The translations under genes and the position numbers were made by a program. Shown here piece after piece: positions 28,104-63,160 of a stretch of 64,000 bases of DNA. Under the pieces are notes generated by a model, which saw nothing but the letters and a program-made list of their open reading frames with translations, ran no database searches and had not been told where the DNA came from. The stretch lies in NCBI GenBank assembly GCA_947561585.1, contig CANNZV010001461.1, forward strand, positions 62,001 through 126,000, given 5' to 3'. Every line of letters begins with the position of its first letter. The first letter of the stretch is position 1. The stretch is from Caprella mutica. Taxonomy: Eukaryota > Arthropoda > Malacostraca > Amphipoda > Caprellidae.

Positions 28104-28109
28104 AATGAA
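28104..28109. repeat. Right Polinton target-site duplication AATGAA
   Basis: Follows the last element base (28,103) and matches 15,033-15,038. Downstream sequence continues as in unit 2 after 45,478. Confidence 0.97.
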
Positions 28110-31059: not shown

Positions 31060-31148
31060 TATATTATATCCAAACGTCGAGATTACATTCTATTATTGGA
31101 GCAGATTTCTCTTTTTAATGCCCACACTGTTAACTCAATTCTTTTCAG

Positions 31149-32157: not shown

Positions 32158-32197
32158 GGTGACTAAAGACGAATCTAGAAACTTGTACCTTCATTTG
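32158..32197 (+). CDS. Host gene exon b, unit 2
   Basis: Same 40-nt exon; the donor here is the stronger GTAAGT rather than GTGAGT. Confidence 0.5.
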
Positions 32198-33046
32198 GTA
32201 AGTGAGAGAGAAGGAAAATAATTTTCTGAAGTGCTTAGAAACCAATTGTTTGATATTCATTAGTTATTCAATTTCATGATTAATATGATATTGAATTGAA
32301 TCAATTTCTAAAGAAATTAAGTAGTTTTTTTTGCGAAAGCTAAAGTATTTACCAATATCATGATAAGAATTTTTGTGTAAGTAGAAACTTGTCCTGACTG
32401 AATATATTTATTAGCTATATACATATATACAGAATGGAAATATAGGTGAAAAGATTAGCTACACACTTTAGTATATGAATTGACACCCTTTCTGTAATTA
32501 AGTTTAAATATTTACTTTCTACACTATATGTGAACAAGACAAAGAGTTCACTTTACAATATCTAGGGAAAGAGTTTAACTTAAACATTCTCTGCATCAAG
32601 TCAACGGGTTTAGTTCAGACGCGTCAGAATCATAATAAAATATTTGATATATTGAGTAATAACATATACTATATATAAGATACAGAATATAATTCATTTT
32701 CAGAAGAATTTGTGGCAGTTTACACGATAGGTTTGGAATTTTTATTAAATTTCACTATATTATTATCGTAAATATTATTCGAGTCAAAGTTTGAGTTCAT
32801 GTAAATTCTTTACAACTGGTAGTTGTATTAAAGGCATCTTAATCTTCTATGAAAGGGTTCGAGTCTCAATTAGAAAATTTGTATTTGTTTCACCGAAAAT
32901 TTAATTGATTTATGTCTATGATTGTTTCTCTGAAGTGTCGAAATTGAATAATTAAGAAATCTAGTTTGTAAGACAGATACTTGATGTTAGAAAAGCTGTA
33001 AATTATCTATATACCACACATAAATATTGAATTTTCGTACCAACAG

Positions 33047-33114
33047 GCAGTTAGTGAAGAGGAAAAAAGAAAAACGAGAGAAGCATCAAATTCCAATAGG
33101 AAAATATTTAGGAG
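33047..33114 (+). CDS. Host gene exon c, unit 2 (end uncertain)
   Basis: Copy of exon c. Immediately downstream the hairpin is present but the minisatellite is not. Confidence 0.4.
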
Positions 33115-33159
33115 GTTCTTCAATTAGTAGCTCTTCAATAGAAAGAGCTACCAATTGAA

Positions 33160-34950: not shown

Positions 34951-35613
34951 CAGGTTGGTCATAAAAATAGGGTGATGAAATTGCTCTTGCGCGAGATATG
35001 TAATTGTTGAAGGATATCAAAATGGGTTTGTCTACACAGTCACAGTATTTAATAAAGAAAGAATTCCTTATTATGAAAAACTACAGGAAACAATGTTTAC
35101 TAAAAAAATCATTATATCCTATTTTTCTCAATACATTTTTGTTCCCGTTTTTAATTGTTTTCTTTGAATCTTTTGAGCATATCAAAATAACTTTCAATGA
35201 ATTCACACCATGCGTTATTCATTCTCTTAATTGATCCAGATTATCAGGTGGGGAGGAGTATACATCATTTTACAAATGAGTGAGATAACCCAACAAGAAA
35301 TAACCGCAAATAAGCTGGGCTAATCGGTGGCCATTTAATAAAATGACCTTTGGCAATTACACGGTAATCAAAACTTCCCAATATCAATATAGTGTCCTGT
35401 GTACTGAGGAATCATGTATACCCTGCATCCACCATACTCGATTCAGAAGTTCTATATAGTTTATTGCAGTTTCGGAATTACCCGCTGATTCAGCATAAAG
35501 TTTCTTTAAAAAATCATGCTAATTTTTTGAGATAAACCTACTTTATTAATAAACAACGTTTAAAATAGCTATCGCAAGAGCAATTTCACCACCCTCTACT
35601 TATGACCACCCTG
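34951..35613 (-). mobile_element. Decayed Tc1/mariner-type element, unit 2
   Basis: Copy of the element at 5,241-5,904; the right flanking TA has changed to AA. Inserted before the duplication. Confidence 0.6.
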
Positions 35614-36244
35614 AAGAAAAGCTATTATAAATATATAGAAACAAACGAAAAATGTGGTAATAGCTGGTAAAATACTGCATTAACCATAGAAAAAATCACG
35701 GAAATACGATGGATCTTTTTAAAGTTATGACGATTTCAATAACATTCCTCTTTTGTAACCAAAAACTATCATGATTTTTGAGGGAGGGAGGAAGGAAAGG
35801 GTGTCGTTGGACCCCTTCCTGGGGTGGGGTAGGGTTTTAATGTTCGTAGCTACATACTAATATGGGATATGGAAGCCTACCACCTAGAGACATAATTTCT
35901 GTCAGAATAAATTGAAAATTTACACCAAATTTAAGAAGTAGACCCCTTTCAAAAGGTCACAGTGATAATATACTGCAAAATATTTTCCCTAAAAATGACC
36001 GATTGCTGATATTCTTCGTTAATATAATTGTAATCAGGGAATTAGGTAACGGTGTTTTTAAACATTTATGAATATCAGATAATATTATTGTTCTGAATTT
36101 TTCGGAATTGGGTCCTAAATTTTCTTTGCTAAAATTGAGAGGGTAGGAGATAAATTATAAGACTATCTTGAGTTACATATTATAATAAAAACATAAAACG
36201 AAATTTGAAATGGTATTCAGTTTTATAACCAGTTACATCATGTA

Positions 36245-37194
36245 CAGGGTGGGGCGTAAGTTTGGAAGCAATTTTTCAAACATTAATATAATTCTTAAAA
36301 ATAAGTTCCTAAGTAGGTGATAGGGTTTGAACTATAGTAGAGACACTACATTATGACGTGGCAGTGTTATTTTTTACAAAAATTTAGTCAATTCAAAAAA
36401 GTCAGACAAAAGAGAAGTCATTATTGCTTCTCTTTTTCTCTCTATTCCGTCATTTCAAAGACTCTCTCAATAGCGAGATCGACTGTTTGGAAGTGTGTGA
36501 AGCGTTTTAATGAGAGAGGAGACTTGACTGATCGTCCAAGAAGTGGTAGACCACGCTCACAACGCACCAAACAACTGATAAAATGTGCCCGAGAGAAGAT
36601 CAGTAGGAACCCGAAAAGGTCAATACGATTGTTAGCCAAAACAGCTAATGTGAGTCCCAGAACAATGAGAAGAGTTGTCAAAGAAGACCTAAAGATGTCC
36701 TCTTTCACCCTCCAAAAGAGACAGCTAAGGATCACTTCGGTAATGACACTCTATGGACATTTCAGCAAGACGGCGCGACTTCACATACTGCAAATGTCAC
36801 TCAAAACTGGTGCCATGACCATCTTCCACGGTTTTGGTCCAAATAAATGTGGCCCCCCTGCTCCCCAGACGTTAATCCTATGGACTTTTCGGTATGGTCC
36901 ATTCTTGAATCAAAGGTCTGTGGTAAATTCCATCGCAGTGTGGATGATTTAAAGCGTTCGCTCCAGAGATCTTGGAAGGAAATTTCACAAGAACAGTTGC
37001 GTGCCGCAGTAGGAAGAGTTCGGAGGAGATTTGAGGCTGTTATTAAAAACAAGGGGGGACATTTGAATAAATTTATGATTTTTGAATTCTTAAAACCCTT
37101 ATGTGATAATACATAACTGTAAATTATTAAATATATTTTTCGTTGGATTTATAATATGCACTTTCATTTGCTTCCAAACTTACGCCCCACCCTG
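36245..37194 (+). mobile_element. Internally deleted maT element
   Basis: 950 bp, same termini as the element at 29,763 but inverted, flanked by TA (36,243-36,244 and 37,195-37,196). Compared with the full copy ~347 bp are missing; the join at ~36,722 falls in a CAG shared by both deletion edges. The start codon of the transposase is also changed. Confidence 0.93.
36353..37116 (+). pseudogene. Transposase remnant of deleted maT copy
   Basis: The helix-turn-helix half (VISKTLSIARSTVWKCVKRF to ...FTLQKRQ) is readable. The deletion then removes the first catalytic Asp and shifts the frame. The C-terminal third (WPPCSPDVNPMDFSVW onward, 36,847-37,116) continues in another frame. It cannot be an active transposase, though its termini could be mobilised by the intact copy. 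Confidence 0.9.
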
Positions 37195-37196
37195 TA

Positions 37197-39386
37197 TAAT
37201 GAATAGAGTAATAAAAAAATTAAAGTGGAGGGGACCTTTTATAAAAAATAGTTACTAGGATATGAATTAACATTTGAATATAAATTCAAAATAAATATTT
37301 TCAAACTTTTTACACTGATGTTACTGAAAATTTATCCATGGGTTCTTAGTTTTAGTTGTTATTATTGTTTCACTCTATATTTAATGAATGAATTATTGTC
37401 ATATGTCTAAATATATACTATATAGTTTGAAAAAAGAGAAAAGAATGAAGAACTTCTCAGGAGAAACATAAAGACTCTTTAGTCCGAAGAAAGACCACTG
37501 TGAAAACTTTAAAATTTATGAAAATAATAAGAAAAAGAAATAACTGAACACATCTACATTTTTGGTCAATTTAACTTGATTAGATAAATTCGATTCAATT
37601 TGACTAGATCGATAATATTTAGTCACAATGAATATAATTGGTAGTGTTAAATCAATTTTGCTTCTGATCGGACGATATTAAGTTGAAAAATTAACTTGCT
37701 ACCACAAGAATTGATTCAAAATTATCTACTTTCAAAGTTTAGAATATTAGAAAATAGGAGTTTTTCTTATGGATCAAACAGAAACAACTATTTTCAATCC
37801 ATTACTTACCACGCGAGACACTCAATGAAGTCTTGGCACTCACCTTGGTGTTAATTTCCATCTACTTTTAATTTGGAGTGTCAGTTCACCGGAAGTTTTG
37901 TCGTCAGCGGAAACTTCAGCCTTTTAATTTACCCTCAGTGGACCTGGAGACCCACCTTCTCCACAAATGAGCCCAACATGTATAAATATCAAATATTTCC
38001 CTAGAAGATCAATATTACTCTGTGTTAGCTGCTAATAGAGTATCGGTACCACCTCAAATAGAGGTGCAGGTCGTGTAGTTATAGTGATGGAAAGGAAGTC
38101 TAATGTAAAGACATACACCGGTTTTATTACAACTCGCACTTATGAAAAGTTAAATAAGTGTGGAACTTGGTTCGCAATTATTTCAACTGGTATAAAAAAT
38201 ATTTCTGGAATAACTTTGGAAATTAGGTTTTATTTTGTTTTCTGTTATGATGTTTTTCGTCGTAAAAATTACAGACATTATGTTCATTCTGGTGAGCTAA
38301 ATTAAAACGATTTTATTGTATATTATATCGTATTTTATACCTTATAAATAGGTAGTCTTATAAAAGATCTTAAGTTTTTATAGCTCTTACCTTTTACTTG
38401 ATGAAACACCAAGGACTCAATGTAGTTTAATTTTATATTAATTGGATTTCTATTGAAATATGTAAGCTGGGTATTTGTTTACTAGAAGAATATACAGTTT
38501 TTTTTCAGTCATGTAATATATATTACTTTGATAGATTTTAGGCATTCTTCTGCATAGAGATTTTTTTTAAGTACACACAATTACACATAGGAAATTGAAT
38601 GCAATGCCTATATCGAACAATACGGTGCAGAGACGTATTACTACATAATTAATTAATATTCATAGAATTGATTATTCTATCACCTAAAAGCTATCCTAAT
38701 AAATTGGCTTGATCTTATAGACTCCTAGAGGACAAAAATATAACAATTAGTATACTAGAACAATACAAATGCAATAAGCAACTGAAATGTACGGAAGGCA
38801 CACTTGTTAAAACAGTTGATCATTAATTTTGGTGCAATGAGCCCCCAGTGGTAATTAGGAACTACTGAACTTCTACTTATTGAAATTATTAATATGTAAT
38901 CCTTGATGTACTTCCATAACTGAAAGGTCTTTGGCATTTTATCTTACTAAAAGAATCAAAATTACTGCGATAATCAAAATGCTATGTATACCCAAAGTAT
39001 CTTCGTTAAATCAAATCTAGTCATGACTCATGAGCCTTGTTTTTAATGAAGAAATATTGTCTTTCTTAAAGTATTGAGCCTTGTATGAAGCATAACCTCC
39101 CATCCTAACATTTATCACATCCACCACACTCGTGAGATCCCCCATTATGACTATTTTCAGTGAAGCAATCGTTTACGCTGGTCAAATTTTTATTTTATAT
39201 ATTTAGGTGAGTAGTTAGAAATGAACACAATAATTTTCTTCCATACTGAACAGTGTTTTAAATCCCCTAATTTTAGCAATCCTAATAGAGGTACCGTCAT
39301 CAGTTTTGTACTGGACACTTCCCGCTCTGACAATTAACTTTGAATCCCCACCATTTATACTCTTATTAACTTATTCTCTTCCATAG
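37197..39386. other. Unit 2 host DNA without supported gene
   Basis: Colinear with unit 1 6,539-8,726, including the uncharacterised 73-codon frame at 38,084-38,305. Confidence 0.45.
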
Positions 39387-39501
39387 AAAAGGCTACTGTT
39401 CGCAGAATAGCAAAACCAATTCAAGATAACGGGATTCCAAAGCTCCTTCATACATTGAAACTTGATGAGTTACAGCCTGACATTAAAGAGGAAGTATTAA
39501 G
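39387..39501 (+). CDS. Host gene exon d, unit 2, non-canonical donor
   Basis: Copy of exon d with the same AAG|ATGAGT at its end. Confidence 0.45.
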
Positions 39502-39803
39502 ATGAGTTGTTGATTTAAACCTCTCTAACTATCTTTGAAATAGATTGAATATTGTTTTGTTTCTATATTACATATTTGAAATTTATGACTAACTTACTTC
39601 CCAAAGAAGAGTGTCGATGTGATCATTCAGTTTTTATGGTATTTCTTTTATCATATCATAATATCCAGTAAATGTGCCATAAGTATGGAGTTGTGAAAAT
39701 ATATATTAGATTGTTAGAAGTTAGTGATTGGTTTTTACTATTTGAAGACTGTTCCAGAGTTCCGGTCTCTCTATTTTGTACATCAGATTTTGATTTTGTG
39801 ATA

Positions 39804-40418
39804 CAGTAAAACCTCGTACTAGACCAGCCTCCTAGAAGACAAACCTCCTATTAGACCAAGAAATTTTTGTAACTGTACTGGAAAAAACTCGTACTAGACA
39901 AAACACAATTTTTATCAACTTACAGTTATTCTAGTGTAAATATTACAAGGAGTAATAATTACAATACTGTTTTAAAGATAATTCCCTAATTTGAATAATG
40001 TATTATAATTATTTATGCTGTTTTTAGGATAAAACATAAGGCAGAATAGGTTTCAGATTTAATGGTAGAGTCTGGGCTACAAAAAATTGATGTGAAAAGT
40101 TATAGAAAACTAGATACAGTGAAGACTATTCAAATTTCATAAAAGGATAATTTAATTGAAAGAATATTCTATTCATTTTAATTGACGCAAAAAAAATTCA
40201 TACTGTTTCTAAATATGTTATACTTCAAAATAAGTATGTTAGTCACCATTAATTTGGCAATAAAGTTATCATAAACAAATAGAGCTATCGAAATATTTAA
40301 GTCACCGCTTTACTTTTAGAGAAAACTATTTTGGTCTAATATGAAACTAATAAAGTGAGTTTCTTACTAGACCAAACAAACTTGGAACGAAACCCTGGTC
40401 TACTACGAAGATTTACTG
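39804..40418. mobile_element. pogo/Tigger-like MITE, unit 2
   Basis: Left end CAGTAAAACCTCGTACTAGA and right end reversed CAGTAAATCTTCGTAG, flanked by TA on both sides. No transposase. It predates the duplication. Confidence 0.7.
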
Positions 40419-40549
40419 TATTTCGATTTTGTGCACAAACTATAAACACATTTGAAAAACATACATTGAGTACGAAAAAAATATTAATCCAAAATACTTA
40501 TCCACAAATCCTATTATTAATGTGTTATAAAAATTTATATCTTCAACAG

Positions 40550-41009
40550 GTACGGTAACATCATTAAACTTCTGATTTTGGAAACATTGGCAAATGGTGA
40601 GCTATCAAAAAACTGCGACACCTTCATTCAACTACTGAGGAAATACTTCAAACAAAGGGATTATTATCCTTCTCCTGCCTATCACTTAGATCTTATTCTG
40701 TCATCAGACAGCAATGCAGATTTCATTAGCTGTGTTTCCGACTGCTTGAGAGATTGGAAAAGGTATAGAATAGAGTGCAACAGCCACATCAACCTCATGA
40801 CTGATGTGATACATACTTTGCAAACTAAAGTTAAAATTAACTACAGTAATCATGAAGTTACAAATACTCAACACATTATCAAACTATTGACTGTGATGGG
40901 AGATAAGAGTGAAATTTGGCTTGATTTCAATCATAGTTACGACAATTACCAACCATTGGAGAAAGAATTCTACACGCAGCTGAGGAATAGCAAGTTAGTT
41001 ACTTTTAAT
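40550..41009 (+). CDS. Host gene exon e, unit 2
   Basis: Copy of the large exon with substitutions such as a Val-to-Gly near the start; open throughout. Same uncertainty about the donor as in unit 1. Confidence 0.5.
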
Positions 41010-41066
41010 GTTAATATCTTATGCATCTGTATTTCAATTTATATTAATCATGTACGATGATTTCAG

Positions 41067-41150
41067 TAGAAAAGTAGCTATTTTCTTCTACACCTGTTCC
41101 CTGCAACTCCTGATGAACGGGAGAAAGATGAAGAATATGTAAAATGGTAA
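41067..41150 (+). pseudogene. Host gene exon f, unit 2, first codon is a stop
   Basis: Starts TAG after TTTCAG like unit 1, then is open to TAA at 41,148-41,150. Confidence 0.42.
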
Positions 41151-41911
41151 AAATGAGAAATGGTAAATAATGGTAAAAATGAGGTGTCAACTGAATTGCT
41201 GAAGAATCTCAGCACATATGATCCGAGTCATTTATTATCCCCAATAAATTAGTCTTATCCGTGATATATACTTTCACCCCTTTTATAATGCTGACTTACC
41301 CGCAGTGTCTGTTGATATCTAATATATATTGACTGCAGATGATACTACATTTATTCAATTTGATTTAGAGTATGGTTGTTTAACCCAAAACTTCACCTGT
41401 GAATTAATCAAGCAGACTAACTATAAATGTTACAGTTTTTATTATTGAATACCGTTACATTAATATTTACAATTTGTAAAAGTGGGAGACTTAAATCATA
41501 AGTTATACCTTTCTCAGAGTTGTGTTAATTTGATACTGATACCTAGGTATCTAGTGTGCTATTTTATCATCTACAACACATAATAATAATTTGGGCATCA
41601 TGATATCAAAAAAGCTGATTAACTACAATTTCATAAGTTATTGTTGTTACAAAAAAAGTGATACGTATTATAACATTACATATAATTTTTAATCAGAGGA
41701 TGAGTAGCAGTGGCTTATTTGACCACTTTGACTTATTCTTCAATTGACCCTTTATAACTTTAATTAATTTGAACGTTAATAACAACCAATTTTATGATAT
41801 CCTTGAAATTTATAAATAGGAAAGCAAACAATAATTTTTTTCCTATGAAAAAAGTATGAATTACAATTGTGTTTAACTATATGTAGAGCACACGTTTTCT
41901 AATACAAGAAA

Positions 41912-42365
41912 AGTGAAGGTGCACTTAAGCTTCGACTGAGATCGTCGAAGCTACTCTTCCCCTTCTGTTGTTTTTATTAAATATTACCAATTAAATAAAT
42001 GAAAGTTGTAGGTATCATAGTAACTATGATACCTACTACTTATAATTTAGCAGTCTTATCGCATATTCCTTTCGTAGTTTCTGCCAAAAGGACTTTTTGA
42101 ACATTTTTAACTTCTATTTCATTTGTAAAAAATGAAAAATGTAATCTTATTTAAAATAAGAGAATCATCTATCTAATGTTATATTACAATGTTAAATAAC
42201 AAGTATATTATGCTATTAAATAAGTCAATGCAAATATTTGTATTTCGTTTCCAATTTATTATAATTTTTTTTCAATCATCAATCACATTTTTAATATTTA
42301 ATAAAACAACAGAAAGGGAAGAATAGCTTCAACGATCTTAGTCGAAGCATAAGTGTACCTTTACC
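41912..42365. mobile_element. Fold-back MITE with ~75-bp arms, unit 2
   Basis: Copy of 11,213-11,666 with the same arms and internal palindrome. Confidence 0.8.
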
Positions 42366-43248
42366 AAAAGAAATCGTACACATGAGCTTTAACTGATCTC
42401 TTATTAAAATATTTACGAATTATTACCCAAAATACGTAAATTGAATGGGGACAAAAATGTCCTCATAGGTCTTAGACTATGAAGGAATATATGTCATTAC
42501 TAAATATGGATGAAAGAAATGTTAAAACAATATCAAAAAAGAAGTATAACACAAAAGAAATGGTAAAACTTAGAGAGACATTAACAAATCGTTAGTTTCA
42601 TTTCGTTTCAAGTTACCATTACTGATATAAAATCAACTCATGATCTGGCATTACATTGCAGATGTAATTCATTTACCATTATTTCACGAATATAATGCAA
42701 GAAAAACAGCCTTATTAAGAGGTGCATTATGTATTTATTGAATTTACCTAGCAATACGCATACGTGCTGCTGTTTATTATATTTGATAAGTTACGTGAAC
42801 ATATATACATCTCTCAATGAATTAATATGAGTTTGAATTGTAAATCTAATTCGAAATATTTTAGATAGATAGTGAAATGTATATCTGTTCTATCATTTTA
42901 AGTTGAAATAACAAGTATATTTTACTTTAAATATGGTTTTGATAAACTTAGCTGTATCAAATTGTTCTATGATTGTCCTAATTTCAATAATCTTTTTCTC
43001 TCCATTGTACAAATATTTATTAGAGTCAATTTACTAATTATTTGTTTATAATTATGAGCTATTAAACACACTAATTGCAAGATTGGTTCACAGTATACAA
43101 AGGAAATAATATTTGAATGATGAAGATAAAAATTGTATTATTCATTATTAATATCTAAATAATAAATTCCTCTTGGTTAGGTAATATACTAACACATAAT
43201 CCTTTGATTATTATTTTAATCACTAATTTATTTTCTACCCCAAAATAG

Positions 43249-43406
43249 TATCACGTGCAAGGTAACTGGATTTAAAGCTTGTATTTCATCAGGAGAATAT
43301 CTCTCCATTGTGGTAAGAGTTTTGAGAAGTAAAAGACTGTATATCAGCATTCCGTCTGTCTCTAACATCAGTTTTGAGGCCTTGAAGGAATTCAATGGAT
43401 GGTTGG
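43249..43406 (+). CDS. Host gene exon g, unit 2
   Basis: Copy of exon g with two amino-acid changes (Lys to Thr near the start, His to Tyr); donor GTAAGT kept. Confidence 0.55.
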
Positions 43407-43875
43407 GTAAGTAAAACAGCTGATTACTAAAAAAGTTCATTCTTCATCATTCTTTCACATGAATTCATATCAAAGATTGTAATCTTTCTTATAAATTAAT
43501 ATTATATTTAATCATATATAGTAATAAAATTAAATTGAATCATCCCTAATAGTATATGTTGAATATTAAAATCCTCTCTACAACTTAATATGAAGTATTA
43601 TAATTTTCCATATTAATTCTTCTATAATAATACAATCCATCCTATAAATATTGTCAATATATATTCAATATTGCAATATCTGCTCTTTATATATATTTAA
43701 ACCTAATAATCTAGCAAAAAATTCAGGCCGAACTTGATCTTATGGAAAAATATCATTGAACTTTAATTCTAAACCGAAACAAACTTTTTTCCTGTCTTTT
43801 TATTTGTTTATATATTTATATGCAATTTGCTATGATAAGATATTCATATTATGGGCTTATATTTAATTATTTTAG

Positions 43876-43925
43876 ATGTCTGTATAGAAGTTCCCTCCAG
43901 AGGGAGAAGAGAGAGTCAGTGCTAG
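43876..43925 (+). CDS. Host gene exon h, unit 2, terminal
   Basis: Copy of exon h ending at TAG 43,923-43,925. Confidence 0.5.
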
Positions 43926-45472
43926 GCAAGTGCCATAAAGTACACAATCCCCATCTATAAGTGATACCTAAGATACATTTTCTTCTATCAAGAACTTCAT
44001 TTTTAAATCGCAAATTAGAAGAAAAGAATATTAGTCAAATTCCGTTCAGATACACTACTTTAAAGTGAAATAATTGATTTTTATGTTTGTTAATCATATG
44101 TTGTCCTATATCGTATGAGGCGCTACATGCGTTGTTGAAAATGACCCCTTCCAGCCTGAACACCGAACGACACACGATTCAGATCATCCTTGCAAAATTT
44201 CTCGAGAATCTCCTGGCTATATCTTTAAGTGAAGCTTTGTATGCGTTGTATAAGAGTCTCAATGGAATCTGGTCATTCACAAACTAACATAAACTCGAGT
44301 TTAGGCGGCAGATGCAGTGTAATGTAGTGGGCCACCGTCTGCCATCTTCCAAAGTAAAGAAGGCGTTTCAGATTGGCGTAGCCAGGGTCAAATAAAGTCC
44401 TGTAGCAATCTGAGGTATGAAACACCATTAACCGGTGACAAGAACCATCATTGACAAAGAAAGCGTGAATGATTGGGACCACTCGATTAATTAAGGCAAC
44501 AAAGGGTCATTACCTTAACATAATAACTATCATTTGTTAAGCACGCAGATATTTCGAGGATTTTCAATTATTTATGTGATTTTTGATGAGGAAACAGAAC
44601 TTCACGTCAATCCAAACGATTTTATTGACAATTTTGGATGGTTGCTGCAGAAACTGACTTAACTGCTTTCTCTGTGCTTTGTGGACATCATTTAATGTTT
44701 TAGCTGAAGTGTAGTGATAAAAACAGTAATAAGGTTCGTGTCATAAGATCCTCCAACTTGGTTTCGATGGGTGAATTCTCCAGAATATTTCTTTCTGAAA
44801 TAGAAACTTGAGGTTTGTCCAAATAAACCCTTCACCTCCAGGATCACTATTACTGTTTTTTTTTTTCTTGTGGATGGTAAAAGCTTCATTGAAATATCAA
44901 GAGCTCTTGTGAACTTTTTCGGTTGGTAAAATCAATAAAGTGTAGCATGAATTATCGGCGTGCTGTTGAAGGGGAATGTGTTATTGCAAACTGCAGGACG
45001 ATCCTCCTCTTCTCAAGATCACAAAACATTTTTCAGGTTTAAGATGGTTGAAGATCAATGTCAAAAATCCACTCTTTATGAACAAAATAGAGTATTATAC
45101 GTGATATACCTTGAAGAATTTCAAGTTCCCCTAACTCGTTTATTCAAAAATGACGCTTCTTAGGGAACGTACATTTTTTTGTGTTATTTCAATTTCAAAT
45201 AGATCACAATTCTTTTGTGTTTACCAATGGATATGTAAATTTCAAATAAGGGTTTTTATGGAAAAAATAGCGAAAGGTCTACATAATAATTCATGCATTT
45301 TTAATAATTTTAGTGAGAGCACTCTATAGATCAATGAATATTATTTCGAGGGGATGGGTAATAGGACTAATAATAATATATTTCTTAATATTTAATACTA
45401 ATGCAATGCTCATTATTATTGTGTTCATTTTCAATAATCTGTAAAACTTTGATCAAGTCTTACCAATTTCTT

Positions 45473-45478
45473 AATGAA
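45473..45478. other. Polinton empty site in unit 2
   Basis: A single AATGAA in the flanks that surround the Polinton in unit 1. Confidence 0.95.
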
Positions 45479-46833
45479 TATATTTTCTTCAAAATAAAAT
45501 AAATAAAATTTCAGGTAGATAGTGATTTAATTGATGCCTTTCATAGATTGTTATCAAGTTGAATTTTTGTTACGAAATTTAATAAATTATTTTTACTTTT
45601 AAAAGCTAAAAATATTATTTTACTAATTATAAATAGTAGTGTGACCAGCAACCATGACACCGTCACAATTTTAATAGGTAAATTGTTCAAAAATAGATAG
45701 GTAGATTTGCTGTTACTAACTAATAAAATTTTGTTCTGAGATTGGTTAATGGTCGGTGATTTGGGTAATGTTCGATGATTGGATAAAGTCTTGTGACTTC
45801 GAAAGTACTTGATGATTGAGTAATGAGTAGTGTTCGGAGAATTTGTCAAGTCATTTTATTCATACATGTTGCCACAAATTGTTTGACACGAGCGTACAGA
45901 AACGGATCTCTATCACAAAATTGAAAATCCTTTCTATTATCGATAGTTAGTTAAATTTTGAAAATTGTTTTTTACAAGAAAATGTACCAAAATTCGGTTT
46001 TATTAATAATCTATTGAAATTATCTTAATAAAAAATACTTTTGAAAACAACAAAACCAAATGAATAGGATAAAATTAATAAAATAATCACTATTATGTGA
46101 GTACTTAAACTCTTTTCTTCTGAGTTGATTTTAAAATCCCATTAAACTTACAAAGAAAGAATGGCATACCAGCTATGTAATTTAAAGGTCCTCTCCAGGC
46201 TCCGAGAAAAAAATGAGTTTATTACATAATATTATAGATTTAAGGTCTAGGTTTATTATTCTCCAAACTACATACGATTCGGTTCGGTATTTATTTTATA
46301 ATTTGTTTTTAGAGTTTTTAATACTCTGTGTGTAACAATTGAGCGAATCACTAACCTGACGCTGAAGAAGAAGATTGTACACTCTTTGATTTGATTTCAA
46401 ATTTGAATTATCAAGTTATAAATTTCCCTGAAGTATATAAACGTTTCTATAATCAGTTCATCCAATTGTATACATTTACATTAATATTAAATGGATACCT
46501 AAAACCTAGTTGACAATCAAAAAAATGGTGAACATTCTATTTCTTCAGACTGAAAATTAGCAAGTTGGAAGTAAAGAAGGTTTTTCAGATTTTTGATTAT
46601 AAAAATCTTTAAAACCATATAAACTTAAAAAATATGCTACCAAATTTCATGAGGTAAGAAATATTAGCCTCATTGAATTGAACAATAAAAAAATTGCCTG
46701 GAGGGGAACTTTGAAGTTAAATGATACTGTAATAATACACTCTACTTTAACTTAAATGATGAGGTTGATTTCAAAAATTGCAATCAAATTATTTATAAAT
46801 ACTATAATGTTTTTTGTTCAATTAACTTTGCAG

Positions 46834-46981
46834 ATCTAAGAGTCAAATACACAGAAGACTACCCCAGCACTGGAAGTAACCCTATCAGAGGGGGATCCAT
46901 CTTGACGATTGAACACGTACCTGCTGACGGCAAAGAAAACCTCTACAAGATTATCAAAAACATTCTTCCTGAATCAAAAGA
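46834..46981 (+). CDS. Host gene exon a, unit 3
   Basis: Copy of exon a with intact splice signals. Confidence 0.55.
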
Positions 46982-47213
46982 GTGAGTATATATATAGAAA
47001 AGAGCTAATTGGATGTAGATGTGAATATAAAATAGTCAAAAAAATTAGCAGTTGTAATGAAATAATAATTCAACGCGGTTATCGTTACGTAACTTACATT
47101 TCGTTGTTACCTAATAATCATAACTATATTATATCCAAACGTCGAGATTACATTCTATTATTGGAGCAGATTTCTCTTTTTAATGCCCACACTGTTAACT
47201 CAATTCTTTTCAG

Positions 47214-47339
47214 ATTCGACTATATATGCTTGAGACATTGTTATCTGACAGACACTGACGTCAATGAGCTGCTGAAGCAATTAGAAAGAGAGAAAATAAG
47301 GACAAAATGGGGAAGAAGTACTGAAGTGAAGGAACAAGG
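47214..47339 (+). CDS. Host gene exon i, unit 3 (intact)
   Basis: 126 nt, in frame to GG|GTGAGA. With exons a, b and c it forms an uninterrupted four-exon series in unit 3. Confidence 0.55.
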
Positions 47340-48018
47340 GTGAGAGTGTATGAGGCTGGTGAATGATCGAGCGTGAGGCTGGTGACCAGTGGGTGAGTGT
47401 TAAGCTGAGGATTGAGTGAGAGTGAAGCTGGTGAATGAGTATGAGGCTGGAGGCTGTTAAGTAAACATGTGACTGGTGAGTGTGTGAGGCTGGTGATCGA
47501 ATTTCAGTATTAGTAAGTCACAAATTCATTTTTTCAATTTTTTATTGTTTAATTTCTTCTAAACCAAATGTTGTAGTCGAATATGCACCAATAATTTCAG
47601 ATATGGTTGACAACTAACCATTCCATTAGAGTCAATGAGCGTCTGTGCATTCATTTTATTAAATCTTACTTTCAAAGATTTAGCAGTGGTATGCCAGTAT
47701 TTATTATATCAGAATTTTTTTACTTTAAAACCTTAAAGTGCCACCTAAAATTTATCTTAAAACTACTTTCTATAATTGGAAGACCATTCGAGTTTGTCAA
47801 TTTAAAATAAAGATCAGATAATCACATAATTCATTGTTCAATCACAAATAGTTTTCAACATTCTGATAAATGAATTTAGCAATTAATTAATAAATTTAAC
47901 ACACCCTTATTTACACATGTGTTGTTATATCCATTCATCTCTGTTTTCTTGGATTAAACAGTAGTGATAACCTATTTAATGTTAACTAGCTGTCTACTAT
48001 CACATTTATTTATTTCAG

Positions 48019-48058
48019 GGTGACTAAAGACGAATCTAGAAACTTGTACCTTCATTTG
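48019..48058 (+). CDS. Host gene exon b, unit 3
   Basis: Identical 40-nt exon with GTGAGT donor. Confidence 0.5.
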
Positions 48059-48943
48059 GTGAGTGAGAGAGAAGGAAAATAATTTTCTGAAGTGCTTAGA
48101 AACCAATTGTTTGATATTCATTAGTTATTCAATTTCATGATTAATATGATATTGAATTGAATCAATTTCTAAAGAAATTAAGTATTTTTTTTTTTTTGCG
48201 AAAGCTAAAGTATTTACCAATATCATGAAAAGAAATTTGTGTAGGTAGAAACTTATCCTGACTGAATATATTTATTAGCTATATACATATATACAGAATG
48301 GAAATATAGGTGAAAAGATTAGCTACACACTTTAGTATATGAATTGACACCCTTTCTGTAATTAAGTTTAAATGTTTACTTTCTACACTATATGTGAACA
48401 AGACAAAGAGGTTATTCAAGTTCTGTGTAAACAAGACAAAGAGTTCACTTTACAATATCTAGGGAAAGAGTTTAACTTAAACATTCTCTGCATCAAGTCA
48501 ACGGGTTTAGTTCAGACGCGTCAGAATCATAATAAAATATTTGATATATTGAGTAATAACATATACTATATATAAGATACAGAATATAATTCATTTTCAG
48601 AAGAATTTGTGGCATTTTACACGATAGGTTTGGAATTTTTATTAAATTTCACTATATTATTATCGTAAATATTATTCGAGTCAAAGTTTGAGTTCATGTA
48701 AATTCTTTACAACTGGTAATTGTATTAAAGGCATCTTAATCTTCTATGAAAGGGTTCGAGTCTCAATTAGAAAATTTGTATTTGTTTCACCGAAAATTTA
48801 ATTGATTTATGTCTATGATTGTTTCTCTGAAGTGTCGAAATTGAATAATTAAGAAATCTAGTTTGTAAGACAGATAATTGATGTTAGAAAAGCTGTAAAT
48901 TATCTATATACCACACATAAATATTGAATTTTCGTACCAACAG

Positions 48944-49011
48944 GCAGTTAGTGAAGAGGAAAAAAGAAAAACAAGAGAAGCATCAAATTCCAATAGGAAA
49001 ATATTTAGGAG
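48944..49011 (+). CDS. Host gene exon c, unit 3 (end uncertain)
   Basis: Copy of exon c (one Arg-to-Gln-type change, ACAAGAG for ACGAGAG), followed by the hairpin and about four minisatellite copies that end at the rearrangement junction. Confidence 0.4.
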
Positions 49012-49112
49012 GTTCTTCAATTAGTAGCTCTTCAATAGAAAGAGCTACTAATTGAAGTGAAGAGCTACTAATTGAAGTGAAGAGCTACTAATTGAAGTGA
49101 AGAGCTATTAAT

Positions 49113-49484
49113 AGGAAATACTTCAAACAAAGGGATTATTATCCTTCTCCTGCCTATCACTTAGATCTTATTCTGTCATCAGACAGCAATGCAGATATCA
49201 TTAGCTTTGTTTCCGACAGCTTGAGAGATTGGAAAAGGTATAGAATAGAGTGCAACAACCACATCAAACCCATGACTGAAGTGATACATACTTTGCAAAC
49301 TAAAGTTAAAATTAACTACAGTAATCATGAAGTTACAAATACTCAACACATTATCAAACTATTGACTGTGATGGGAGATAAGAGTGAAATTTGGCTTGAT
49401 TTCAATCATAGTTACGACAAATACCAACCATTGGATAAAGAATTCTACACGCAGCTGAGGAATAGCAAGTTAGTTACTTTTAAA
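49113..49484 (+). pseudogene. Host gene exon e, unit 3, 5'-truncated
   Basis: Begins inside exon e at the rearrangement junction, so it lacks its acceptor and first ~30 codons. The rest is open (DWKRYRIECNNHIKP...) to the GTTAAT at 49,485. Confidence 0.6.
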
Positions 49485-49540
49485 GTTAATATTTTATGTA
49501 ACTGATTTTAATTTATATTAATCGCATGCAATGATTTCAG

Positions 49541-49624
49541 TATATAGAAAGCTATTTCCTTCTATACCTGTTCAATGCAACTCCTGGTGAACGGGAGAAA
49601 GATGAAGAATATGTAAAATGGTAA
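49541..49624 (+). CDS. Host gene exon f, unit 3 (open)
   Basis: Starts TAT ATA GAA after ATTTCAG and runs open for 27 codons (YIESYFLLYLFNATPGE...) to TAA. This version shows the likely original frame of exon f. Confidence 0.5.
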   Translation, partial: YIESYFLLYLFNATPGEREKDEEYVKW

Positions 49625-50076
49625 ATAATGGTAAAAATGAAGTGTCAACTAAATTGCTGAAGAATCTCAGCACATATGATCCGAGTCATTTATTATCCCC
49701 AATAAATTAGTCTTATCCATGAAATGTACTTTCACCTCTTTTATAATGCTGACTTACCCTCAGTGTCTGTTGGTATCTAATATATATTGACTGCAGATGA
49801 TACTACATTTACTCGATTTGATTTAGAGTATGGTTGTTTAACCCAAAACTTCACCTGTGAATTAATTAAGCAGACTAACTATAAATGTTACAGTTTTTAT
49901 TATTGAATACCGTTACATTAATATTTACAATTTGTAAAAGTGGGAGACTTAACATAAGTTTTACCTTTCTAAGAGTTGTGTTAATTTGATACTGATACCT
50001 AGGTATCTAGTGTGCTATTTTATCATCTACAACACATAATAGTAATTTGGGCATCAAGATATCAAAAAAGCTGATT

Positions 50077-50592
50077 TCTCGCAGTAATTTTGATCCCTTT
50101 AATAAGATAAAATGCCCAGGACCTTTCAGTGAAATGTTAATATTTTCAATAAGTAGAGGTTCAGTAGTTCCTATGTACCTATATACCACTTGGGGGCTCA
50201 TTGCACTCAAATTAATGATCAACTATTTGAACAAGTATGTCTTCCCTACATTTCAGTTTCTTATTGCATTTGTATTGTTCTAATAACTTACAATTTTTTT
50301 TATTTTTTGCCTTCTAGAAAGCTCAAGCAATTTATTAGGATAGCTTTTAGGGGATAGAATAATCAATTCTATGAATATTAGTATGTGTAATGTCTATACT
50401 TAAAAAAATCTATATGAAGAAGGACGCAAAGAGAACTGTCAAAGGAATAACTATTACATGACTGAAAAAACTGTATATGCCTCTAGAAAATATGTACCCA
50501 GTGTAAATAATTCAATAATAATCTAATTAATATGAAATTAAACTACCTTGAGTCTTTGATGTTTCATCAACTTAAAGGTAAAACCTATAAAA
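50077..50592 (-). repeat. Inverted copy of unit 1 ~7,705-8,308
   Basis: This segment is the reverse complement of unit 1 sequence, with noticeable divergence. For example GGGGGCTCATTGCACTC at ~50,190 matches the reverse of the GAGTGCAATGAGCCCCC-like stretch near 8,165-8,185, and CTACCTTGAGTC at ~50,543 matches the reverse of GACTCAAGGTAG at ~7,750. It joins the direct copy at ~50,076 and runs into the 28-bp satellite. Confidence 0.85.
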
Positions 50593-51213
50593 CTAATATA
50601 ACAGTCTAATCAGTACTAAACTAATATAACAGTCTAATCAGTACTAAACTAATATAACAGTCTAATCAGTACTAAACTAATAAAACAGTCTAATCAGTAC
50701 TAAACTAATATAACAGTCTAATCAGTACTAAACTAATATAACAGTCTAATCAGTACTAAACTAATAAAACAGTCTAATCAGTACTAAGCTAATATAACAG
50801 TCTAATCAGTACTAAACTAATATAACAGTCTAATCAGTACTAAACTAATATAACAGTCTAATCAGTACTAAACTAATATAACAGTCTAATCAGTACTAAA
50901 CTAATATAACAGTCTAATCAGTACTAAACTAATATAACAGTCTAATCAGTACTAAACTAATATACAGTCTAATCAGTACTAAACTAATATAACAGTCTAA
51001 TCAGTACTAAACTAATATAACAGTCTAATCAGTACTAAACTAATATAACAGTTTAATCAGTACTAAACTAATATAACAGTCTAATCAGTACTAAACTAAT
51101 ATAACAGTCTAATCAGTACTAAACTAATATAACAGTCTAATCAGTACTAAACTAATATAACAGTCTAATCAGTACTAAACTAATATAACAGTTTAATCAG
51201 TACTAAACTAATA
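50591..51213 (+). repeat. 28-bp tandem repeat, about 22 copies
   Basis: Unit AACTAATATAACAGTC plus TAATCAGTACTA. Copies are near-identical with TATAA/TAAAA and TCTAA/TTTAA variants and one 1-bp deletion near 50,965. It starts where the inverted unit segment ends. Confidence 0.95.
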
Positions 51214-52530: not shown

Positions 52531-52692
52531 TCAATGCAGGTGGATAGTGATCCATTCCAGGTAGTCAGACACTCTGATGTAAACACCCGGTTTGCCGGCC
52601 CTGGCACACTGGAACCCAGTCGAAACTACTCCTACGATGCGCCAATCGGAAAAACAGGGCAACTTCGTGAGGAGGGGCCCACCGGAGTCACC
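52531..52692 (-). CDS. Serine protease exon with catalytic Ser
   Basis: Terminal exon after acceptor TTCCGCAG, ending at a stop at 52,531. GDSGGPLL carries the catalytic Ser, then [17 protein letters not shown] and [15 protein letters not shown], the canonical C-terminus of trypsin-like (S1) proteases. With the previous exon it completes KDACQGDSGGP, whose Asp indicates trypsin-like specificity for Lys/Arg. Upstream exons add LDLa domains. Confidence 0.95.
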
Positions 52693-52875: not shown

Positions 52876-54240
52876 TGCAACCAAACACAGCTAATTACAA
52901 CCTGTGATGATATGGTCATACTAAACACAGCTAATTACAACCTGTGATGATATGGTCATACCAAACACAGCTAATTACAACCTGTGATGATATGGTCATA
53001 CTAAACACAGCTAATTACAACCTGTGATGATATGGTCATACTAAACACAGCTAATTACAACCTGTGATGATATGGTCATACCAAACACAGCTAATTACAA
53101 CCTGTGATGATATGGTCATACTAAACACAGCTAATTACAACCTGTGATGATATGGTCATACCAAACACAGCTAATTACAACCTGTGATGATATGGTCATA
53201 CTAAACACAGCTAATTACAACCTGTGATGATATGGTCATACCAAACACAGCTAATTACAATCAATGGTGATATAGACATACTAAACACAGCTAATTACAA
53301 CCTGTGGTGAAATGGTCATACTCTAAACACAGATAATTACAACCTGTGATGATATGGTCATACCAAACACAGCTAATTACAACCTGTGATGATATGGTCA
53401 TACCAAACACAGCTAATTACACCCTGTGATGATATGGTCATACCAAACACAGCTAATTACAACCTGTGATGATATGGTCATACTAAACACAGCTAATTAC
53501 AACCTGTGATGATATGGTCATACCAAACACAGCTAATTACAACCTGTGATGATATGGTCATACCAAACACAGCTAATTACAACCTGTGATGATATGGTCA
53601 TACCAAACACAGCTAATTACAACCTGTGATGATATGGTCATACTAAACACAGCTAATTACAACCTGTGATGATATGGTCATACCAAACACAGCTAATTAC
53701 AACCTGTGATGATATGGTCATACTAAACACAGCTAATTACAACCTGTGATGATATGGTCATACTAAACACAGCTAATTACAACCTGTGATGATATGGTCA
53801 TACTAAACACAGCTAATTACAACCTGTGATGATATGGTCATACTAAACACAGCTAATTACAACCTGTGATGATATGGTCATACCAAACACAGCTAATTAC
53901 AACCTGTGATGATATGGTCATACTAAACACAGCTAATTACAACCTGTGATGATATAGTCATACTAAACACAGCTAATTACAATCAATGGTGATATAGACA
54001 TACTAAACACAGCTAATTACAACCTGTGGTGATATGGTCATACTAAACACAGCTAATTAAAACCTGTTTGGATATGGTCATACTAAACACAGCTAATTAC
54101 AACCTGTGATGATATGGTCACACTAAACCCAGTTAATTACAACCTCTGATGATATGGTCATACTAAACACAGCTTATTACAACCTGTGATGATATGGTCA
54201 TACTAAACACAGCTTATTACAACCTGTGGTTATATGGTCA
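52876..54240 (+). repeat. 40-bp minisatellite, about 34 copies, in intron
   Basis: Unit AAACACAGCTAATTACAACC plus TGTGATGATATGGTCATACT, regular over ~1,365 bp. The last base alternates C/T among copies, and some degenerate copies (AATCAATGGTGATATAGA) recur at ~53,261 and ~53,981. It lies wholly in the protease intron between 52,693 and 54,276. Confidence 0.95.
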
Positions 54241-54276
54241 CAACTAATTTCACAACTTATTTCTTTTTCATTGTAC

Positions 54277-54437
54277 CTGACAAGCATCTTTCCCTCCTGC
54301 AGCAAGGCCTGCGCACATCCTTTTATTAAAGTTATATTTGTAGTAGGCTTTTTTGCACTGTCCATGTGACCAGATGGGAACCATCACCTCCCTCAAGACA
54401 TTGCTTCCTCTACCCTTATAAGAAGTAGTGCCCCAAC
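54277..54437 (-). CDS. Serine protease exon (middle of S1 domain)
   Basis: Acceptor TTTTCTCAG, donor CAG|GTACAA. Encodes GWGTTSYKGRGSNVL, the loop with QCKKAYY and KRMCAGLAAGGKDACQ. Conserved Cys residues and the specificity-pocket Asp (GKDACQ) are present. Phases match neighbours on both sides. Confidence 0.93.
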
Positions 54438-54798: not shown

Positions 54799-54935
54799 CA
54801 ATAACATGGGCATCGCGATTAGTCAAAGAGACGTTTGGAGGAGGCAGGGAAACTGGTTTGACGTAGTCATTGAATGTGATGTCCTCCTTCAGCTCCAAGA
54901 TGGCTATATCATTTTCCAAATTACTATGGTTGAAT
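54799..54935 (-). CDS. Serine protease exon with catalytic Asp
   Basis: Acceptor CCATTTAG, donor ATTG|GTCAGA. Encodes FNHSNLENDIAILELKEDI, with the catalytic Asp in NDIAIL, then YVKPVSLPPPNVSL. Its ends are phase-compatible with the exons at 55,295 and 54,277. Confidence 0.93.
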
Positions 54936-55294: not shown

Positions 55295-55393
55295 TGCTCA
55301 TGATACCAAATATCACTGACATTCACATCTTGAGATCTTCCTGACGGTGAATTGAAATCGTACTCTCCAACTCTAACGACAATCTGGTCCGCA
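55295..55393 (-). CDS. Serine protease exon (VRVGEYD region)
   Basis: Acceptor CTTTCAG, donor CA|GTGAGT. Encodes ADQIVVRVGEYDFNS and QDVNVSDIWYHE, the region between catalytic His and Asp, typical of arthropod clip/modular proteases. Confidence 0.9.
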
Positions 55394-56342: not shown

Positions 56343-57310
56343 AAGAGTGGCACTCATCAAGGCCATCTTTAGTGTAACCAGGCCATACCCTTGCTTTGAA
56401 CAGCTGATCGCCGAAATCATAACAAAGCGCTACGCACCTATTAATTTAAATAGGAATAAATAGAGAAACTGGTTGCGTTCTCCTTTAATCGACTTATTTT
56501 TATAGTTACGAGTGGAAATTTGATTTAAATTTTTACAGTTCATTCACTAAAATCTCTGCAATCGACTGGAATATTTTTTTTACTTTAAATTTTAATTTTT
56601 AACATTGAAAATCTTGAATTACCTCAGTCTTATTCACTGTTTATCTAGTATGATGAAACTATTAGCTGTGTTTCACACATGAATATTGAATAATATTTCT
56701 ATGGATTATCATTAATTATTCTTACTACTGCTGAGCTATACCTAACTAAGCACATGATTCAAAGAATTTCAAAGTCCACTCTATTTGTGACATGTTAAAC
56801 TGTAAGTTGTGGCTGTTGTGCTACCATATTTAGGGAGGCCAGACTGCTGGAACAGTGGAACTAGTAAAGTGTTCTCCAAGAAACCCTTTATTTTGCTTTC
56901 TGTTCTCATCAAAACACTTGGAAATAAAGAAGAACACATGCAATTGTCTTTTTTAATTCAATCCTTACAAAGGAACAGGTATCATAATTGTTCATAAAAT
57001 CACAGTCTGAGCAGGTTGTGAATCAATAGCTTTAGGATGTGCCTTTAAACAATGTGTCATCAGCATTCCCAGTCAATAGCAGATATTCTAAAGAATACAT
57101 TGTAAAAAATTTAAATCAAAATTTCACTCGTAATTTAAAAAATAAGTCAATTAAAGGAAAAAGCTACCAGTTTTTTATATTTATTCTTATCTAAATTAAT
57201 GGGATAGTAGCGCTTTTTTATGATTTCGGCGATCAGCTGTTCAAACTATAAACGCCAGAATGGTCCGGCCTGATAAACTATAGATGGCCTTGATCCAGCC
57301 ACTCACGTCT
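56343..57310. mobile_element. Fold-back element with ~200-bp arms
   Basis: The left arm (56,343-56,560) and the reverse of the right arm (57,090-57,310) share ATCAAGGCCATCT, GAACAGCTGATCGCCGAAAT and TAGTAGCGCT-like segments through to TTTGATTTAAATTTTT. By eye identity is about 80 percent. The middle is unrelated AT-rich sequence without coding capacity. Target duplication not resolved. Confidence 0.82.
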
Positions 57311-59799: not shown

Positions 59800-61330
59800 T
59801 CTCTCAGCCATAGCCTTAATAATTCGGTGGTGTCGTTCCACAATCCCATTACCACTGCCCCAATACGCAGCTCTAAAATAGGACGATATTTTGACACTTC
59901 TGTAGAAGGTCTTGGAACAGCTTAGATCTAAATACTGTAGCATTATCCATCAGGACCTCCTCAACAGGGCCACGCTCAAAAAGAATAGACTCCAACTGAA
60001 TGCTAATGAATTCAGCAGTCTATCTAGCCAATTGTCGCCAAATTGCAAACCTTCCTGGTCCACAATCTACAATAGATAAATAAAGCACATTCCTATAGTG
60101 AGTCACATCGATTGCTATACTTTTCCAGTCTTCAGCAACCGCCAACTCTCTGCTCTGGTGAGTTACAGGAGCTGGATCGATTGATTGGTACTGCATACAC
60201 TGCCTAACGACTCTATTAACAGACTCACGTGAGATAGTAGGATCAACTGTCCGTGACAAATATAGAGTTCTCTCAACTCCCATATGGTGCATGTTATGTC
60301 TGTCTTCCAAAGTGGTAGCCATAGCACACATGCTAGTCTCCGAGTTGTCATTAGTCTCTCCCTCTACTGCAAGCCACGATTTCTTATCTCGTGTCAGAGT
60401 GTCAGCTTTATTTTCCTCGGACGGCATCAGCTTAATCGAAATAGTTAAGTTCAATTCCTCGATTAAAGTCTTTAGTATTCCTAACCTTCTCTTAACTATT
60501 ATTTCGGCAGCTCCCTTAGTTTTAACTCGTTTGTCCTCTGATAATGACAGATTAACCCAACCTTAAAGTAGCTGAATCTGTAATCAGTTTAACGTTGCTG
60601 ACACCCCAATTAACTGCTAGATTCAAGCCTTTCAGCACAGCTTCAAGCTCTGCCACATTTATGTGATTAAAATCATTTCTCTTTCTAAGCCATGCGTCAT
60701 CCTCCACAACAACATCACCGATCTCTAGCACTACTCCTAAAGCTATTGAGCTTGCATCACACCACACAGTTGCATCCACATTTGGTGGCACAGCCCTTTT
60801 TCCTCTCACCAGATCCTTATTTCTAACTCTCTCAATAACCTCCCTCATCATTGTTTCCACTGATGTTCCAATAGTATCCGTCCAGCTGCTACCCTGTGCT
60901 GCCCTCTTTACATAACTACAAGCAACTCTTAACCAACCAACTACCGGGTAATGACCCACCAATCTTCCACATATAGAAAACAACTCTCTTCTTGACATAA
61001 CATCAGGTAGCTCTGGAATAATGTTTCCTCTTCGGAAGAAGAGCTCACCAGACTTATCTTTCAAAAGTTTCAGTCTAAGTACTGAGCCCCATCTAATTCA
61101 TCTGGGGATTTGATGGAGAGCCCAAATCTCGATAAATGTTCAGTCACAGTGGACACAGAGACCTTCGATTTGTCTACAAGAATATCGTCTGTGTATGAAC
61201 TAGTGCCACTCTTAACGTCAGGAGAACTGGATAACACAGTTTTGAGTATTTTCGACATAATTCTTGGTGCAGAGCTTAATACAAAACCAAGTCCATTTAA
61301 TTTTCTATGGCCCCGCAATAACTTTCTTCT
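59800..61330 (-). pseudogene. Degenerate LTR-retroelement pol (RT-RNase H-INT)
   Basis: Minus-strand fragments in order: reverse transcriptase with SYTDDILVD (61,070-61,318); thumb/RNase H with VWCDASSIALGVVLE, E in NVAELEAVLKGL and D in LITDSATL (60,552-61,064); integrase zinc-binding HHMGVERTLYLSR...CMQY and core entry DWKSIAIDVTHY (60,020-60,454); then MDNATVFRS and, in another frame near 59,830, GNGIVERHHRIIK. Frame changes between blocks show decay. Ty3/gypsy-like organisation is most likely; no LTRs were identified. Confidence 0.85.
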
Positions 61331-61482
61331 TGGTACAGTGTTACCATTTCAGTTCATATCGACAGGTAAAGTCATAGTGCGGTTATGGAAGATTAAAGAG
61401 GTATCTTGTCTCAAATATTGTATGGCAGCATATAACTTTCACCCAGCGAATACCAAGTTGATGTCAACCTTACCTCTCCTTA

Positions 61483-61910
61483 AGGGGCCTTTACACGAGC
61501 ACTGGTCAGTGCCACTATTCACCACACTTTTTCACCACACTGCCCACCAATTAGCTAAGCGCCTTTACACGAGCTGGATGTGCTTTGGTGGGCACTGACA
61601 CTTTAGTATCGTGGTTAGCATCTAATATGCTATTAAACGCTAACGCTGTTAGTGTTTTATCTTTATAATGTTTAGATTTATTTTCCATAGGCATGCTCGC
61701 TCTTCAACTAGGCCAATGAAAGGGGTTGTTGATTGTCTGGCAATCGTTACTGACAGACAGTGGCACTTTGTGGTGAGCGTTCGCTCTCAGAGCGATAGCT
61801 TGGTCACCACCAAGTTTTGCCAAGAAGGTTGTGGCAAGTAACAAAGTGGGCGTGTCATTGAGCAGTGTCACCACAAAGTGGCACTGAGCACTTACCGTGT
61901 AAAGACCCCT
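61483..61910. mobile_element. PIF/Harbinger-like MITE inside a protease exon
   Basis: 428 bp with termini AGGGGCCTTTACACG and, reversed, AGGGGTCTTTACACG, flanked by TTA on both sides (61,480-61,482 and 61,911-61,913). A 3-bp TTA/TAA duplication is typical of PIF/Harbinger. Inner sequences repeat CAGTGCCAC and its reverse. No coding capacity. It sits in the coding exon that carries the catalytic His. Confidence 0.88.
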
Positions 61911-62067
61911 TTACAGTGAGCAGCTGTTAGGATATGCCTGTTAGTAAGGATAGCTCCCCCGCAGAAATGTATGCCAGAAGAAGAGTAGAGGAGAGCTGCC
62001 ATGAAGGGCCAATCGTTAGGATTAGCAGAGACACCTCCAGCGATGCGTGATTCAAGGTCGTCATTTG
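61896..62067 (-). CDS. Serine protease exon with catalytic His
   Basis: Acceptor TTTCAAG at 62,068. Encodes ESRIAGGVSANPNDWPFMA, with the R|IAGG activation site, and FCGGAILTNRHILTAAHC with the catalytic His. The MITE begins two codons later. A perfect GTAAGT inside its terminal repeat (61,890-61,895) would end the exon after KGVFT plus CG, in phase 2 as the next exon needs. The presumed original donor GTAAGG lies beyond the MITE at 61,468-61,473. Confidence 0.88.
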
Positions 62068-62569: not shown

Positions 62570-62704
62570 TGTATTTTTCATCACACTTACTGTATTTTTC
62601 ATCACTGAAGTCGGCGCAGTGGTTGTCTCCATAACATTTGATGTGTGATGGAGCACATTCACGTTCATTGCGGCAGTAATTACCTGTTCCCGAACAAGAG
62701 TCAC
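62570..62704 (-). CDS. LDLa domain exon (proximal to protease)
   Basis: Acceptor GGTCAG; reads DSCSGTGNYCRNERECAPSH and IKCYGDNHCADFSDE, the LDL-receptor class A pattern with Cys spacing and the calcium-binding D/E motif. Two donors (GTAAGT at 62,585-62,590 and 62,564-62,569) lie in 21-bp tandem repeats. Only the second includes the sixth Cys (SKC). Both give the phase of the protease exon at 62,067. Confidence 0.88.
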
Positions 62705-63046: not shown

Positions 63047-63160
63047 AGTCATCCTCATCACTCCAATCATCGCAACCGTTGTATCCATTACATCTAGAGC
63101 TAGATGGAATACATTTACGCTTATTTAAACATTTGAAAGCACCTCCATTACACGAGTCAC
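63047..63160 (-). CDS. LDLa domain exon (distal)
   Basis: Acceptor TTGTCAG, donor T|GTGAGT. Reads DSCNGGAFKCLNKRKCIPSS and RCNGYNGCDDWSDEDD, with the final Cys completed across the splice junction. Clear LDLa domain, calcium-binding residues present. Confidence 0.9.

Follow-up and report, generated by a model that had tools for sequence, protein, structure and literature searches.

How could a protease gene still be read when a MITE lies within one of its coding exons, directly after the motif of the catalytic His? This question is raised by a 64,000-nucleotide stretch of the Caprella mutica genome (contig CANNZV010001461.1, positions 62,001 to 126,000; hereafter the window, in whose coordinates all positions are given). 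On its minus strand the window carries an LDLa–trypsin serine protease gene of two LDLa-like and five protease exons, of which the phases match and which are stop-free to the end. LDLa exon 1 (63047..63160) is the one stretch matched by Pfam Ldl_recept_a (PF00057, E 7e-11), and LDLa-like exon 2 (62591..62704), with 51% identity to exon 1 across 35 amino acids, is not reported by Pfam as a second stretch. The protease part opens with a 172-nt exon (61896..62067; acceptor TTCAAG/CAAATG, the slash marking here and below the exon boundary) that contains the IAGG start, the catalytic-His motif TAAHC and a MITE-encoded tail, GVFT plus CG. The next exon (55295..55393), reading ...ADQIVVRVGEYDF..., is entered in phase 2 and is followed by the exon with the catalytic Asp (NDIAIL; 54799..54935), the exon GWGTT...GGKDACQ (54277..54437) and the last exon (52531..52692), running from GDSGGP with the catalytic Ser to the stop at 52531. 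Pfam Trypsin (PF00089) matched across the whole domain with an E of 1e-61. The identity as an S1A trypsin-like protease with LDLa is given by the presence of both Pfam domains and of all three catalytic motifs, His, Asp and Ser.

Relatives of the protease were taken from the best 120 matches of each of two protein searches. They were mostly arthropod proclotting-enzyme-like, polyserase-like and 'venom protease'-named proteins with about 28-50% identity, and the LDLa protease of a mirid bug (P0038) showed 45% identity to the protease over the domain. None of the relatives in these searches was close enough to be an orthologue, and neither a near-identical protein nor an annotated product was found among the best 120 of each search. 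By a motif scan of 19.2 kb past the window end, which gave two stray matches, neither the 5' end of the gene nor further upstream LDLa exons were found.

The surroundings of the gene are rich in other repeats. The intron on the side of the MITE also holds a retroelement-like fragment on the minus strand (60555-61064; PF13456 RNase H-like and DUF7047) and an inverted repeat of about 180 nt with 83% identity (56395-56572 and 57065-57245), perhaps another transposon. The last intron of the gene contains a tandem array with 40-bp spacing (52880-54260), and a second array with 28-bp spacing lies past the end of the gene (50590-51213). Elsewhere in the window, a Tc1-like transposase frame (DDE_3) is open at 29889-30905 on the minus strand and encodes a protein 98% identical to P0223. 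A cluster of large open frames on the minus strand (17515-27700), judged Maverick/Polinton-like by eye, includes a weak integrase-core match below the cut-off (PF00665) and a 1145-amino-acid frame without a Pfam match. Long duplications occupy 1-16000, 28100-45050 and 45472-50076, in pieces longer than 900 bp and up to 6.3 kb, with 92-99.8% identity.

An earlier note on this DNA, made from the letters alone, had claimed that a MITE was inserted in the protease exon with duplication of TAA, that its removal restores an older exon end, and that its terminal repeat supplies a donor in the same phase so as to leave the downstream frame intact. The analysis agreed with the note on each of these points. 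The MITE is located at 61483..61910 on the minus strand, a 428-bp element with ends AGGGGTCTTTACACG and CGTGTAAAGGCCCCT and no notable coding frame, and was recognised by its inverted ends (35 nt, imperfect, 83% identity) and by 40 further copies in the genome. The two copies of the target-site duplication, at 61480..61482 and 61911..61913, are TTA on the plus strand and TAA on the gene strand, perfect and intact. Its position is directly after TAAHC and only a few bases short of the older donor of the exon. When the MITE and one TAA are taken out, the flanks join as GCTGCTCACTGTAAGGAGAG/GTAAGG, the exon measures 163 nt, and its end reads AAHCKE plus AG/GTAAGG; the reconstructed empty site is thus predicted from the sequence to read TGTAAGGAGAG/GTAAGG. 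When the MITE is kept, the exon reads GCTGCTCACTGTAAAGGGGTCTTTACACG/GTAAGT over 172 nt and ends with AAHCKGVFT plus CG/GTAAGT.

Two splice donors are therefore to be compared. The donor borne by the MITE, ACG/GTAAGT (61890..61898; exon end 61896, GT at 61895-61894), lies about 16 nt inside the element end, and the older donor, GAG/GTAAGG (61468..61476; exon end 61474), is displaced and, with the MITE donor in use, intronic. Relative to the older donor, the MITE donor adds 9 nt to the exon in identical phase. As the two differ by nine bases, the next exon is met at 55393 in the same phase, and the downstream frame, open from there to the stop at 52531, is unchanged. The end of the exon would change from Lys-Glu-(Ser) to Lys-Gly-Val-Phe-Thr-(Arg), so that the split codon would be preceded by five full codons instead of two, in agreement with the about three and six residues of the earlier note. 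With a matrix of average donor weights, not fitted to this species, the scores were 6.22 bits for the MITE donor and 6.46 bits for the old donor. By the same matrix, no other site on the gene strand between 62067 and 61440 (628 nt) exceeded 4 bits as a donor. The MITE donor occurs at one end of the element only, immediately past the terminal 16 nt of the TIR; at the corresponding place of the opposite end the letters are AGCACT. As read by eye, no acceptor contributed by the MITE is evident in this orientation.

The chance of such an arrangement was estimated by dinucleotide shuffling of the MITE in place. Among 20,000 shuffles, 0.31% yielded an in-phase donor of at least the same strength before or at the first stop, and looser thresholds raised this fraction to 0.4% (6 bits), 0.8% (5), 1.7% (4) and 4.1% (3) with 5,000 shuffles each. 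The reversed MITE gave no in-phase donor at thresholds of 6.2, 5, 4 and 3 bits. The shuffle figure is one obtained after the fact, because insertions that kill a gene go unseen and survivable ones alone are observed.

For the origin of the donor, the MITE family was examined by a DNA search of the same genome (903 Mb, 7200 contigs). This search gave 576 first-look candidates, of which 40 were scored, with 45 matches listed. After partial or nested pieces and repeat fetches of the same places were dropped, the family set consisted of 41 full-length copies including the focal one, the 40 others being those most similar to it among the 576 candidates, with 91-96% identity. ACACG/GTAAGT was found in 39 of the 41 copies (38 in register and one shifted by an inserted T), and the remaining two read CTAAGT and GTAAAT. 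As the donor is shared so widely, it very probably came with the element when it jumped; birth of the donor by mutation in the focal copy is ruled out by the same count. The 15-nt leader in front of the donor is open in all three frames, which by our own estimate happens by chance in about one of two cases for 15 nt and is unremarkable alone. Target duplications are alike on both sides in 38 of the 41 copies (TAA 24, TTA 11, TGA 2, TCA 1) and unequal in 3, a TWA duplication alike on both sides being found in 35. Among the 41 copies there are 39 distinct site sequences, and two of these are almost the same. Targeting of splice donors as a rule of the family is ruled out, GTAAG being present at 2 of the 39 site sequences. 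Copies L022 and L036, L013 and L016, and L042 lie within or beside MITE pieces, or share flanks, be it across contigs or twice within one locus; shared flanks may mean that the assembly has kept haplotypes or duplications separate. The MITE end pattern gave no match in viral contigs and two stray matches in prokaryote contigs.

The earlier note had also proposed a search for other copies acting as donors. For each of the 41 copies, the sequence upstream of its donor was inspected (in most cases 300 nt, never more than 400), and ten stretches of at least 45 amino acids proved open, one of them the protease itself. Pfam gave no significant match for the nine others, with one stray hit at E 0.21; a second host exon was thus not recognised in this small sample. 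Stretches L028 and L041 look reverse-transcriptase-like by eye, for which Pfam gave no confirmation. The match of L007 and L011 past the element end was considered as a paralogous exon and ruled out, as the flank reads differently by eye.

Taken from the genomic sequence, the most probable explanation is that splicing takes place at the donor of the MITE and that the protease functions with three additional residues. A PIF/Harbinger-like MITE would have inserted in a TAA just past TAAHC, a few bases upstream of the old donor, in an orientation and phase that let its GTAAGT, about 16 nt inside one end, continue the reading frame. The spliceosome would then close the exon at the MITE donor, and everything from there to the next exon (remaining MITE sequence, older donor and former intron) would be removed as a single intron of about 6.5 kb. 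In the mature protein this would add three residues to the surface 60-loop, KE(S) becoming KGVFT(R). We infer both the use of the MITE donor and the activity of the enzyme. Against this explanation, the old donor scores slightly higher, and two donors further on in the gene are off consensus, G/GTCAGA after the exon at 54799 and CAG/GTACAA after that at 54277.

A mixed use, overlapping with this explanation, is conceivable at somewhat long odds. The transcripts would then be spliced at the MITE donor, at the old donor or by skipping of the exon, and the MITE would also lower or regulate the output through unproductive splicing. The presence of two nearly equal donors 422 nt apart fits such mixed use. 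Splicing at the old donor, which would keep the MITE in the message, makes an exon of 594 nt that ends in a different phase, and this form bears an immediate in-frame TAA at the MITE donor itself; an in-frame stop in a retained form is a target for NMD. Skipping of the 172-nt exon would remove the catalytic His and shift the frame. Against mixed use, exon definition usually prefers an exon of the 172-nt type.

It is unlikely that the insertion simply disabled the gene or this allele, with the exon skipped or the old donor used together with the retained MITE. The product would be a truncated protein, and the gene would be decaying, or its function would survive via an empty allele or a paralogue. 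The old donor is indeed intact and scores no lower than its competitor (6.46 vs 6.22 bits), and the lack of a near-identical product in the two protein searches agrees with a disabled gene. However, all later exons and catalytic motifs are intact even though none of the 41 copies has diverged further than the focal one, and no other copy exceeds 96% identity, so that the 40 copies scored out of 576 candidates gave no sign of a second filled allele. Compared with the consensus of the others, the focal copy carries 16 substitutions (3.72%) and 2 single-base deletions, while the others differ by 0.23-2.15%; its terminal branch measures 3.43%, against 2.23% for the next longest and a median of 0.72%. 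The insertion thus looks old, as judged against the copies most like the focal one, a choice by which older relatives may be missing from the comparison. Adjacent changes in the focal copy, such as three neighbouring bases, may be single events, in which case the age is overstated.

The coding sequence of 954 nt contains no stop and no frameshift. Had the gene been dead since the insertion, 1.6 nonsense changes and 4.5 indels would be expected in these 954 nt when all changes are counted (probability of none, 0.0023), and 0.8 and 2.2 when only changes private to the focal copy are counted (0.048); the test carries little weight when restricted to substitutions (P 0.20-0.44). Because the insertion looks old and the coding sequence is nevertheless undamaged, a gene that stayed in use with the MITE donor is favoured.

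The added residues stand directly after Cys58, in what we take to be the 60-loop of chymotrypsin numbering, as placed by alignments. Loop length, counted in residues from the Cys to the GE motif, is 12 with the MITE donor and 9 in the reconstructed empty form. Among 222 relatives, 279 AAHC-like sites with a GE-like motif could be counted (124 of 403 sites were without a recognisable motif), and the loop is 11 at 150 of these sites, 12 at 35 and 9 at 13, with 25 sites at 9 or below. By a stricter motif applied to the first 120 relatives, 52 of 60 loops are 11 long. The MITE-form loop aligns gap-free to that of the mirid protease P0038. Against the relatives, therefore, the MITE form is of ordinary length, and it is the reconstructed ancestor that is short. 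Either the ancestor was short-looped, or the exon end was altered otherwise before or after the insertion; we infer the state before the insertion from the joined flanks. A wider proposal, in which donor and open leader serve the family as an 'escape hatch' so that exonic insertions in one orientation survive, and in which the lengthened 60-loop beside the active site was kept as it changed or restored enzyme function, appears quite improbable.

The earlier note had called the case rare, which is overstated in view of the transposon-borne donors near termini described in PMC5432752 (maize Ds1) and PMC9860276 (Introners). In the former, Ds1 contributes three donors as well as two acceptors, all of them closer than 35 bp to an end of the element, and Ds preferentially provides donors. 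The titles of Dennis (1988) and Wessler (1991), cited in PMC3260210, describe Ds1 as behaving like an intron and as being spliced from the message and from exon sequences. Like Ds1 (about 400 bp; PMC3260210), the MITE is a short non-autonomous element, and its donor, which in 39 of 41 copies lies some 16 nt inside the element, falls within the 35 bp of Ds1. In contrast, the plant element Ds makes an 8-nt target duplication whereas that of the MITE is a 3-bp TNA, which sets it outside Ac-Ds; and where Ds1 brings both donors and acceptors, the MITE would give a donor alone, by which an existing intron grows.

Introners are non-autonomous and intron-making, and an Aureococcus family adds four residues (PMC9860276). 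Both Introners and the MITE are non-autonomous DNA elements with TIRs and a TSD, and the splice site of the element itself is used in Introners and probably also in the MITE; Introners make new introns in many genes, whereas the MITE would replace one old donor, with one exonic copy recognised. In our reconstruction the empty-site join keeps a same-phase donor for the same next exon, so that no new intron would have been made. That the family is itself Introner-like and spreads by making introns is highly improbable, since, despite a built-in donor near one end and a TSD and TIRs of the sort that many Introner families have (PMC9860276), the intron seems older than the insertion, no acceptor is evident by eye, and the nine open stretches in the 40 other copies lack a significant Pfam match.

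The element resembles the insect PIF/Harbinger MITEs, for which PMC9033116 gives TWA, AT or AWT duplications, lengths below 800 bp, TIRs, many copies and intronic insertions. It shares with them TWA in 35 of 41 copies, 35-nt TIRs of 83% identity, a 428-bp non-coding sequence and 576 candidates in the genome with 40 scored, the assignment being made from target duplication, ends, size and copy number. In silkworm, 308 protein-coding transcripts have ORFs to which TEs contribute (PMC8476886). As a caution for the present case, junctions predicted in Drosophila between intronic transposons and mRNA were without RT-PCR support in one re-study (PMC11462757). A partial literature search met no report of an animal MITE replacing the donor of an exon, which is no claim of absence.

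The kind of event is already known from the transposon-borne donors of maize Ds1 and from codon-adding Introners, and the protease MITE is probably a case of it in an animal genome. It would be a clean one, in which the end of a DNA transposon itself replaces an exon boundary and in which many sister copies are available for comparison. It also raises questions that can be tested: whether exonic insertions of donor-bearing MITEs survive preferentially in the donor orientation, and whether such MITEs extend protein loops.
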